A DNA stretch of 64,000 nt from Candidatus Gastranaerophilales bacterium (lineage in GTDB: Bacteria; Cyanobacteriota; Vampirovibrionia; Gastranaerophilales; Gastranaerophilaceae), in assembly GCA_905235155.1 (NCBI GenBank), contig CAJOKJ010000020.1, positions 1 through 64,000 of the forward strand, written 5' to 3'. The notes under the pieces were generated by a model. That model searched no databases, was not told the DNA's origin, and saw nothing but the letters and a program-made list of their open reading frames with translations. This document shows positions 60,138 through 64,000 of the stretch, in pieces (the stretch's first letter is position 1; each line of letters begins with the position of its first letter). A program made the translations under genes and the position numbers.

Positions 60138-60347
60138 TCCCATTCCTTATACACACACTTTTATATTATAAAGAAGGTCTGTAAATATTTTTTTTTGCAT
60201 GCTTTTACCCTATTTGTTACAAAAAATTTACAAAAGAATTTAATAAAAAAATACCTATAAAAATTATACAAAAAACACGACAATCAGACAGCAGATTATG
60301 TGAAACCAACAGAAACTTGCAACAACAGTCAACCGTTCACCATTTTG

Positions 60348-60532
60348 TTATTACGAGGAACGAAGTGATGAAGTAATCAGTAAAATTGTCATTGCAAGGA
60401 GCGTAACAACGAAGTAATCCGGTAATCTTGTCATTGCGAGGAGTGTAACGACGAAGCAATCCAATAAGTAAATTGGTTTGCCAGTATTTCAACTGGATTG
60501 CCACGAAAATCAAGGATTTTCTCGCAATGACA
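60348..60532. repeat. Dispersed palindromic repeat, copy F (three left arms, one right arm)
   Basis: Successive left-arm units start near 60348 (TTATTACGAGGAACGAAG), 60389 (TTGTCATTGCAAGGAGCG) and 60431 (TTGTCATTGCGAGGAGTG), followed by one right arm ending TCTCGCAATGACAG. The 450-bp gap 60138-60589 holds this cluster and no gene. Confidence 0.8.
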
Positions 60533-60589: not shown

Positions 60590-61936
60590 TTAATGCCTTT
60601 TGAACATTAGCAGTTGACCGTATACGCTTATTGTACCGCCTGCGTCAACACGGAAGTCAAATTGATCAACATTTCCGGTAGTTTTCGAGTTTGGTCCTTT
60701 ATTACCGTTTATGTCAACTGTTATAATAGCGTCTTTAGAACTGGTTGCAAATCTATCAACAACACTCCAGGACATACCGTCTTTTGTTACAAATGAACAA
60801 GATGTACCATTACAAGAGCTTGACTTTGTATCAAATAAACTTGCAAAACTGTATGCGAATTTGTTTGTCGTTTTCATGTCGCTAGGGTGATTTGCAGGTA
60901 ATGTCGTATTAGTAAATACGTTACCTCTAGAACCTGCTTCAAAATTAGGTATTATATAATCGGTTGTCCCGTTTTTGTTGTCCCCGTTAGTAGTTCCCGT
61001 ACCTATATTTACGGCATTATCTGTCGGTATATCAGGATTGAACACTTGACAAGAAGACGGGTCAATAGTGCAAGGATCATCGTTTCCGTTGGAACCTGCA
61101 CTGCAAGCAGGATTGCTTGGATTTGCCGAACAGTCAAATGTGCTGCCGCTTGATGATGAACTGCTTGAACTGCTTGAACTAGATATTGAGCGACACCTTG
61201 TCGGACAGCCATCAGATCCGACAAGATATCCATTCGGACAGTCAAGGTTAAGGTCAGGACATTTTTTACATTCACAAGAACCTCCTTCTTTAAATACGTA
61301 GCCGTCAGGACATTTTTCACACTTTATACAATCACAAGTTTTACCTGGATTTTTATATCCTCCATAGCCTAAGCCGTTGCAATCAGTAGTTTTACATTTA
61401 TTACATTCACACCTATCATCTTGAGAAGACCCTTCTTCACAAGGTTTACAAACACATTTACACGTAGTAGAATTTACTTCAATTGTATTTTTGGGGTAGC
61501 AATATCTTCTATTCGAAGCCTTATTACTCATACACATTTCTGAACAATTACAATTAGCACCAATATAGTTTAAACCATTCATCTCAGCACAACAGCCAAC
61601 ACATTTTATGGTATAATTAGTAAAAAAACTATCCAAATCATATTGACAAGAATATTCTGCCACTGCCAGTTGCCTATTTATTAATGCGGTGAGATATTTG
61701 TTTAGTTTATTTGTTTTATATGCTGTTTTTTGTACAGGATATAAATCATCGTCATTTGCCAGTGTTGCTACGGCTTTGGCTGTTTCGGAATAGGCTTTTC
61801 GAATCATTGAGTAGTCTTTGTCCGGTCGCATGTTACGCAAACTGACAATTGTTATTATTGCAATAATCCCAATTACTCCGACCATAATTAGTGTTTCAAC
61901 TAAAGTAAATGCTTTTTCAGACTTAAATTTTTTCAT
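60590..61936 (-). CDS. Modular cysteine-rich type IV pseudopilin
   Basis: Protein of 448 residues. The leader MKKFKSEKA is followed by FTLVETLIMVGVIGIIAIIT, a class III prepilin signal with Glu5. After an N-terminal helix (to about 95) comes a block with 26 Cys in about 155 residues, in C-x-C and C-x2-C spacings (CKCVCKPC, CECNKC, CDCIKCEKC, CECKKC) resembling EGF- or laminin-like modules. A poly-Ser linker (12 or more Ser) and a C-terminal pilin-like domain (VDINGNKGPNSKTTGNVDQF, RVDAGGTISVYG) follow. ATG 61936 has GAAGGAG 7-8 nt upstream; the open frame runs 17 codons further. The tail probably belongs in another frame (SRKFRKED, stop at 60552). The gene starts 15 nt from a recombination-type site. 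Confidence 0.8.
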   Translation of the reverse strand: MKKFKSEKAFTLVETLIMVGVIGIIAIITIVSLRNMRPDKDYSMIRKAYSETAKAVATLANDDDLYPVQKTAYKTNKLNKYLTALINRQLAVAEYSCQYDLDSFFTNYTIKCVGCCAEMNGLNYIGANCNCSEMCMSNKASNRRYCYPKNTIEVNSTTCKCVCKPCEEGSSQDDRCECNKCKTTDCNGLGYGGYKNPGKTCDCIKCEKCPDGYVFKEGGSCECKKCPDLNLDCPNGYLVGSDGCPTRCRSISSSSSSSSSSSSGSTFDCSANPSNPACSAGSNGNDDPCTIDPSSCQVFNPDIPTDNAVNIGTGTTNGDNKNGTTDYIIPNFEAGSRGNVFTNTTLPANHPSDMKTTNKFAYSFASLFDTKSSSCNGTSCSFVTKDGMSWSVVDRFATSSKDAIITVDINGNKGPNSKTTGNVDQFDFRVDAGGTISVYGQLLMFKRH

Positions 61937-61951
61937 ATTAACTTCTCCTTC

Positions 61952-61981
61952 AATGCAACATTTTTTATAAAATGTTGTATT
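61952..61981. repeat. Left crossover-type site, 30 bp
   Basis: 11-bp arms AATGCAACATT and AATGTTGTATT around the spacer TTTTATAA. It is the inverted copy of the site at 62565-62594 with one mismatch (G for A at position 4). Its left edge touches the Shine-Dalgarno sequence of the pseudopilin gene. Confidence 0.85.
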
Positions 61982-62005
61982 GAACAAAGTACAGAAAGGA
62001 TTAAT

Positions 62006-62548
62006 ATGACAGCAGTTGAACCGATTAGAAACTTACAAAAAATTAAAAAAGTAGAACAATTTTTAGCCAAGCAAAGCTATAGAAATTTATTGCTTTTTAC
62101 GTTTGGTATAAATTCCGGTTTAAGAATATCTGATATTTTAAAGCTTGATGTGAAAGATGTAAAAAACAAGGCTTATATTGAGATAAAAGAACAAAAAACG
62201 AATAAATTTAAGAAGTTTCCTCTAAATTCAAAACTTAAAAATATGATTGAAATTTACACAAAGAATAAACCTGTTAATAGTCCGCTATTCAAAACGATAT
62301 TTAACAATAGAATGGATAGAGTAACCGCTTATAGGATAATAAGATATGCCTGTAAAAGAGCAGGCGTAAGGGAAAATATAGGCACACACAGTCTAAGAAA
62401 AACTTTTGGATATCATTTTTATAAAAAATATAATGATATTGCAATGTTACAAAAAATATTAAATCACTCCTCACCTGCTGTAACAATGCGATATATTGGA
62501 ATTGAACAAGAAGAAATTTATAAAAATTACAAAATGTTTATTTTATAA
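62006..62548 (+). CDS. Small tyrosine recombinase (FimB/FimE-sized, catalytic domain only)
   Basis: Protein of 180 residues. Catalytic residues of the tyrosine recombinase family are all present: Arg40 in SGLRISD, Lys64 in EQKTNKF, His128 and Arg131 in THSLRKTFGYH, His154 in LNHSS and Tyr163 in MRYIGI. The N-terminal core-binding domain of XerC/D is absent, as in FimB and FimE (about 200 residues). Similar short integrases are common in Firmicutes, so transfer is possible. Ribosome site AAAGGA lies 6 nt before the ATG. It is flanked on both sides by the inverted 30-bp sites. Confidence 0.88.
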   Translation: MTAVEPIRNLQKIKKVEQFLAKQSYRNLLLFTFGINSGLRISDILKLDVKDVKNKAYIEIKEQKTNKFKKFPLNSKLKNMIEIYTKNKPVNSPLFKTIFNNRMDRVTAYRIIRYACKRAGVRENIGTHSLRKTFGYHFYKKYNDIAMLQKILNHSSPAVTMRYIGIEQEEIYKNYKMFIL

Positions 62549-62563
62549 TTTTTGTGTTATAAT
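62535..62563 (+). promoter_or_regulatory. Outward promoter at the right end of the invertible segment
   Basis: Extended -10 TGTTATAAT (TATAAT 62558-62563), with a weak -35 TGTTTA at 62535-62540 (17-bp spacer). The 16-bp word TTTTTGTGTTATAATA is identical to the ftsZ promoter region. Initiation would fall inside the right-hand crossover site. Confidence 0.5.
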
Positions 62564-62564
62564 A

Positions 62565-62594
62565 AATACAACATTTTATAAAAAATGTTGTATT
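62565..62594. repeat. Right crossover-type site, 30 bp
   Basis: 11-bp arms AATACAACATT and AATGTTGTATT around the spacer TTATAAAA, the reverse complement of the left spacer. Perfectly symmetrical arms; inverted with respect to 61952-61981. Confidence 0.85.
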
Positions 62595-62790
62595 TATAAA
62601 AAGTTTGTATAAACGGCACTATATGCTGCTACACAGTATACATTTTTAAAGTCGTTTTTTGTACTACTTAAGCGGTTATTATTCATTTGATTTTTACATG
62701 TGTTTGTTTTAGTATTTTGTTGATTAAGGAGTGCCGGGTTGGAAATAAAAAACTTACCGGCGAGTACATATAAATTAAGGAGAATGCGAA
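62595..62790 (+). other. metK leader region with a GC-rich hairpin
   Basis: About 196 bp without a supported gene. It contains a GCCGG / CCGGC stem (62733-62737 with 62757-62761) and two TTAAGGAG words, at 62724-62731 and just before metK. It does not show the conserved core of the SAM-I or SAM-II riboswitches by eye. In the present orientation it is transcribed from the outward promoter of the invertible segment if that promoter is active. Confidence 0.35.
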
Positions 62791-64000
62791 ATGGCATCAA
62801 AAAACTTTTTATTTACGTCTGAATCCGTAACTGAAGGTCATCCTGACAAAGTTTGCGATCAAATTTCAGATGCAATTTTAGACGAATTTTTAACAAAAGA
62901 CAACAAATCACGTGTTGCCGCAGAAACAACCGTAACAACAGGTATGGCACTTGTTTGCGGTGAAATCACATCCGATTGTTATGTAGATATTCCTCAAGTT
63001 GTTAGAAATACAATTAAAAATATCGGTTACATTGGTGAAAACGGTGGAGGGTTCGACTACAAAACTTGTGCCGTTTTAACAAGTATTGATGAACAATCAA
63101 CAGATATCGCCGGCGGTGTAAACAAAGCACTTGAATCAAGAAATAATAATGCTGATACCTCAAACAGCGAAACAGAAGACATCGGTGCAGGCGATCAAGG
63201 TATTATGTTTGGTTATGCTTGTAACGAAACTCCTGAGTTAATGCCTTTACCTATCAGCCTTGCTCACAAATTATCTTACAGATTATCAAGAGTAAGAAAA
63301 AAAGGTATTGTTGATTACTTAAGACCTGACGGTAAATCACAAGTTACAGTTGAATATGTTGACGGAAAACCTGCAAGAATTCATACAATTCTTATTTCAA
63401 CTCAACACGATCCCGTTATCGGTACAGAAAGCGACAATCAAAAAGTTCAATCAATAATTGAAAAAGACCTAAAAGAACACGTTATTAACTACGTATTCAA
63501 AAATGAAACCATAAAACCTGATGAAAATACAATTATTTTAATCAATCCGTCAGGACGTTTCGTAATCGGCGGCCCTCAAGGTGATGCAGGATTAACGGGA
63601 AGAAAAATTATTGTAGATACATACGGCGGTTATTCTCGTCACGGTGGCGGTGCTTTTTCAGGTAAAGATCCAACGAAGGTTGACCGTTCTGCCGCTTATG
63701 CTGCAAGATATGTTGCTAAAAATATAGTAAAGGCAGGTTTGGCTGAAAAATGTGAAATAGAGTTGGCTTATGCTATTGGTGTTGCAGAACCTATTTCAGT
63801 TTTGGTTGATACTTTTGGTACAGGTACAATTTCTGATGAAAATTTATCTGAATTAGTAAGCAAAAATTTTGACTTAAGACCTGTTGGAATTATTAATAAA
63901 TTTGATTTAAGAAATTTACCTTCTAAAAATGGTGGTAAATTCTATCAAAAACTTGCTGCTTATGGTCACATGGGCAGAACAGATTTAGAAGTTCCTTGGG
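62791..64000 (+). CDS. metK: S-adenosylmethionine synthetase (3' end cut by the window edge)
   Basis: Makes SAM from methionine and ATP. 403 codons are visible, so only the last few residues are missing. [24 protein letters not shown] (cited in parts: EGHPDK), [35 protein letters not shown] (cited in parts: [13 protein letters not shown]), [23 protein letters not shown] (cited in parts: GGGAFSGKD) and VAYA-type [11 protein letters not shown] supply the ATP, methionine, Mg2+ and K+ sites. AAGGAG lies 8 nt before ATG 62791. Confidence 0.96.

Follow-up and report, generated by a model that had tools for sequence, protein, structure and literature searches.

A putative promoter-inversion switch enclosing its own tyrosine recombinase beside a type IV pilin-like gene in Gastranaerophilales

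In the fim switch of Escherichia coli (FimB/FimE, fimS), a short, catalytic-domain tyrosine recombinase and inverted repeats serve to invert the promoter of a pilus gene, and the recombinase lies beside the invertible segment. In the H segment of Salmonella, the gene for Hin, a serine recombinase that works with a recombinational enhancer, lies together with a promoter inside the invertible segment that controls a surface-structure gene. Gastranaerophilales are gut relatives of Cyanobacteria, and a search of the open-access literature, a scope that leaves out preprints and most subscription journals, returned no report of phase variation by DNA inversion in this order. According to a passage of PMC5903667, recombinases are occasionally located inside the invertible segment, for example Hin, and a putative 844-bp segment enclosing a recombinase, of a type that the passage does not name, lies near fimbriae in Providencia stuartii. 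Invertons of gut bacteria include the Mpi-controlled loci of Bacteroides and the RecV switches of C. difficile (PMC5903667, PMC11892184).

Here, we describe a locus in the window, the 64,000-nt stretch of DNA that was analyzed, which represents contig C20 of a 2.05-Mb, 64-contig Gastranaerophilales genome. Like the fim switch, it combines a short tyrosine recombinase, inverted repeats, and a putative promoter inversion for a pilus gene, but its recombinase gene lies inside the segment and its sites are 30-bp near-palindromes. With Hin it shares a recombinase gene positioned between the inverted sites, an enclosed promoter, and a surface-structure gene as the proposed target, whereas its protein is, by Pfam, a tyrosine rather than a serine recombinase, for whose gene no promoter was recognized. 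The Providencia stuartii segment, as it appears in the passage cited, also encloses a recombinase near pilus genes, but has 14-bp imperfect repeats and belongs to an unrelated lineage. Given Hin and this putative case (PMC5903667), the statement in a preliminary description of the locus that it matches no nameable system was too strong.

The segment spans 643 bp between a left recombination site at 61952..61981, AATGCAACATTT-TTTATA-AAATGTTGTATT, and a right site at 62565..62594, AATACAACATTT-TATAAA-AAATGTTGTATT, neither of which was assigned a strand. As initially described, the two are inverted 30-bp copies, identical at 29 of 30 positions with one base different, and the sole gene between them encodes a complete 180-residue tyrosine recombinase (intact open reading frame, 62006-62548). 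The near-palindromic arms, initially given as 11 bp around an asymmetric spacer, allow readings of 11, 12, or 13 bp. Because each site is almost its own reverse complement, nothing but the central 4-6 bp gives it an orientation, and in these positions the right center, TATAAA, is the exact inverse of the left, TTTATA. The centers of the window sites are therefore inverted, in contrast to the directly oriented attachment sites that surround a mobile integrase element. The frequency of such sites in the genome is far above chance, with 18 occurrences of the core AACATTTN(4-7)AAATGTT in a pattern search, compared to 2 for a control pattern. An Rfam search around the segment yielded nothing useful.

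The recombinase gene (62006..62548, + strand; assigned by open reading frame, Pfam, and family alignment) is preceded by a predicted ribosome-binding site at 61994..62000 (+ strand), and only 24 nt separate the left site from its ATG. The protein matches Phage_integrase (PF00589) with 94.8 bits against a cut-off of 27.1, and because this match spans residues 15-166 of 180, it consists of the catalytic domain only. We propose R40, K64, H128, R131, H154, and Y163 as active-site residues, an assignment that includes the conserved R, H-x-x-R, H, and Y of tyrosine recombinases. Across the family, R131 and Y163 are invariant (66/66 each), and R40 and H154 are conserved in 63/66 and 65/66 members, respectively; H128 is present in the window recombinase and family-wide falls below the 95% threshold for listing. 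Relatives with solved structures are of the XerA/XerH/XerD type. The best NCBIfam model is XerA-type (90 bits, cut-off 220), while the FimB/FimE-type invertase models score 47.7 and 32.2 bits (cut-offs 222 and 221), so that the protein scores higher with the XerA/XerC/XerD models than with FimB/FimE and reaches no curated cut-off. Of the 288 genomes of the family, 197 contain relatives at E <= 1e-30, and dN/dS values of about 0.13-0.19 between the window recombinase and its relatives, with synonymous sites close to saturation, indicate that it is under purifying selection. A generic promoter scan, which needs a -35 box, recognized no recombinase promoter within the segment, including the 24-nt interval that precedes the ATG; its 8 matches in the segment, compared to 6.8 expected, were no richer than those in shuffled sequences.

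Adjoining the left site is a ribosome-binding site, AAGGAGAAGTT (61940-61950), of a minus-strand gene (60590..61936) whose predicted N-terminus, KAFTLVETLIMVGVIGIIAI, carries a type IV pilin-like motif recognized by eye. The pilin-like assignment is a provisional one made from this N-terminal motif only, and a Pfam and NCBIfam search of the protein gave no match. The same pilin-like gene adjoins the cassette in a related species (G001), and we propose that it is the target of the switch. Downstream of it, a 42-nt repeat occurs three times in tandem (60339-60463), and similar repeats follow a truncated pilin in G000:C35.

At the other end of the segment, just inside the right site, an extended -10 element, TGTTATAAT (62555..62563, + strand), matches the consensus for an outward-facing promoter, which faces metK as assembled and would face the pilin gene after inversion. 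The locus thus has the arrangement of a promoter-inversion switch, that is, inverted sites around an outward promoter at one end, the promoter here being predicted by consensus match. It escaped the generic scan, which requires a -35 box. Of 8 segments, 7 have an extended -10 (TGNTANNNT) within the final 60 bp next to the right site, whereas shuffled sequences predict 1.3, and none of the 8 has one at the other end; these eight segments are not independent, as three derive from one pilin-switch family. We infer that the element acts as a promoter and that the pilin-like gene is its target.

Segments of 222-260 bp that contain no recombinase gene precede other pilin genes in the genome, in both orientations, and the set is found genus-wide. 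A second family of sites, ATGTAACATTTTNNNNAAAATGTTACAT, precedes genes in this genome whose N-terminus is of the pilin type (e.g., FTLAETLIVMGVIGVVAALTLPNLN). On C17 and C3, a pair of such sites, spaced 260 and 222 bp, respectively, encloses a segment in which a promoter close to one end is directed away from the pilin; on C6 only one site was found and the promoter is directed toward the pilin. These orientations are suggestive, but because the loci are different, they do not represent the flip of a single locus. The preliminary description had read the locus as an inversion system and assigned it no function; the outward promoter, the pilin ribosome-binding site at the left site, and these recombinase-free versions extend that reading.

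The clearest sign of inversion was observed at an orthologous locus in two species, G139 and G214, which have in common, and in the same order, the recombinase and downstream sugar-enzyme and glycosyltransferase genes, while the ~200-bp segment between is reversed (78% identity in reversed alignment compared to 49% forward). Comparisons of G020 with G266 and of G266 with G260 displayed weaker signs, in the form of minus-strand matches between or beside plus-strand ones. Fourteen site pairs were hand-picked among the listed matches, using a search pattern that included the arms and not the centers; the centers are exactly inverted in 12, inverted with a 1-base indel in one, and direct in one, and they differ from locus to locus. 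Moreover, an inverted-repeat pair was present near the recombinase gene at 24 of 58 loci of the family, compared to 1 of 18 and 0 of 24 control chunks. In G184, the ends of two contigs coincide with the inner edge of a site, which indirectly matches the behavior of an assembler when both orientations are present in the sample. Based on these sequence comparisons, inversion by the recombinase family is well supported. The initial claim that the recombinase flips its own segment is thus supported in part, with the G139/G214 flip, the inverted centers, and the repeat-pair enrichment speaking for inversion by the family; no flipped copy of the window segment was found, its own contig shows one orientation only, and the G001 cassette has the same orientation relative to the pilin. 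We infer that the window recombinase would likewise invert the window segment. A 99-nt overlap between the ends of contigs C1 and C29, starting from a site center, was considered as an inversion junction and rejected because it runs into a repeat shared by multiple contig ends and because the centers are wrongly oriented. The repeat AAGGAAACTAATAATTTTCTATAAAAAACATCGAATATTTCTTA is present at the start and end of G000:C1, the ends of C29 and C12, the start of C18, and at 67000 on C7.

Recombinases inside the sites were found in five cassettes: the window copy, G000:C9:17344-17993, G001:C23, and G006:C61 from the same genus (75%, 63%, and 61% amino acid identity to the window recombinase, respectively), and G260:C25 from another genus. 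The G260 recombinase is distant in the tree, and a single clade for all site-flanked recombinases was rejected. In most relatives, the recombinase instead adjoins the switch, outside the sites. Most inverted-repeat pairs begin within about 260 bp past the recombinase stop (1 to 257 bp), and the repeats are 118-375 bp apart in most of the pairs listed beside recombinases. The genes beyond several of these pairs resemble glycan or surface-sugar genes, as judged by eye from the open reading frames, and at one such locus Pfam detected FdtA-like and glycosyltransferase family 2 domains. Family recombinases also occur downstream of genes that by eye resemble phage-structural genes, at L032 (G003:C39) and L029/L030 (G004, G005), and in G003 the phage-gene-associated recombinases form a tandem pair.

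We consider it probable that the cassette is a promoter-inversion (phase-variation) switch for the pilin that encloses its own recombinase. The 30-bp near-palindromes would be the binding sites of the 180-aa protein, which would pair them by their asymmetric centers and invert the 643-bp segment. As assembled, the promoter would fire in the direction opposite to the pilin-like gene, for which no other promoter is evident (OFF); in the inverted orientation, it would fire into that gene (ON). It is highly improbable that the palindromes are instead terminators, operators, or ordinary repeats flanking the recombinase by coincidence: the sites are near-palindromes in AT-rich intergenic DNA, and solo copies exist, but they lie upstream of pilin genes and beside ribosome-binding sites, form inverted pairs with matched centers that vary by locus, and have a core pattern that outnumbers its control by 18 to 2. 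The preliminary description had raised such a role together with the occurrence of the 30-bp sites elsewhere without the recombinase; the latter was found, but in most cases the sites form an inverted pair that flanks a promoter ahead of a pilin gene, unlike ordinary terminators or operators. The single orientation seen, the unrecognized recombinase promoter, and a second copy in the genome whose flanking sites are degenerate (C9:21607-22146) might also indicate that the switch is a decayed or inactive remnant. An intact recombinase gene under purifying selection, sites that remain 29/30 identical with matched centers, and the conservation of the R/H/Y positions across the family make this improbable.

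Gain or loss of the cassette also occurs. In G001:C23, the order is mnmA, site, recombinase, site, and pilin, whereas the same mnmA-pilin locus in G000:C35 has mnmA, exactly one site, and only the 5' part of the pilin gene, with no recombinase. Similarly, two sites, the segment, and a pilin on G001:C102 correspond to a single site on G000:C2. Gain or loss would not be expected from inversion alone, and the single-site locus in G000:C35 counts against a pure inversion system. Both comparisons would suit a mobile one-gene cassette, in which the recombinase, along with one site, excises from and inserts at palindromic sites, inversion being a side reaction or not occurring at all, and with near-palindromic sites direct-style pairing would cost few mismatches. 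However, insertion of a circle should leave direct centers, while 12 of the 14 pairs are exactly inverted; a related recombinase adjoins the flipped G139/G214 segment; and the pilin is absent at C2 as well, making site-specific excision alone insufficient. We therefore regard the mobile cassette as an unlikely explanation.

On the right flank, metK, encoding S-adenosylmethionine synthetase (62791..63999, + strand, by Pfam; continuing past the window end), is probably not the ancestral neighbor of the cassette. Pilin and cassette seem to have moved as a unit, since the complete pilin and cassette adjoin metK and the synteny with G001 around metK does not extend beyond 62665, a position within the spacer. 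The metK leader (62720-62790) contains a short hairpin (GCCGG...CCGGC) that is conserved across five sequences from the genus, with two-sided changes at 2 of 7 predicted pairs in one sequence and no Rfam match; these are faint signs that it could be a metK-linked regulatory RNA.

The promoter-inversion switch favored here resembles the Mpi and RecV invertons in the inversion of promoters before surface-polysaccharide or surface-structure genes. Mpi and RecV serve several loci at a distance, whereas here the loci tend to have their own recombinase, nearby or inside. A tentative possibility is a modular system that extends across the lineage: pilin and glycan genes would be switched by small tyrosine recombinases, each bound to its locus, through near-palindromic sites that are interchangeable, and cassettes could also jump or be lost at the sites and perhaps act on those of other cassettes. 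If inversion operates as proposed, pilins would vary within Gastranaerophilales populations, as would, probably, surface glycans. The enclosed-recombinase cassette also provides a compact unit for studying the choice between inversion and deletion by a tyrosine recombinase at near-palindromic sites.
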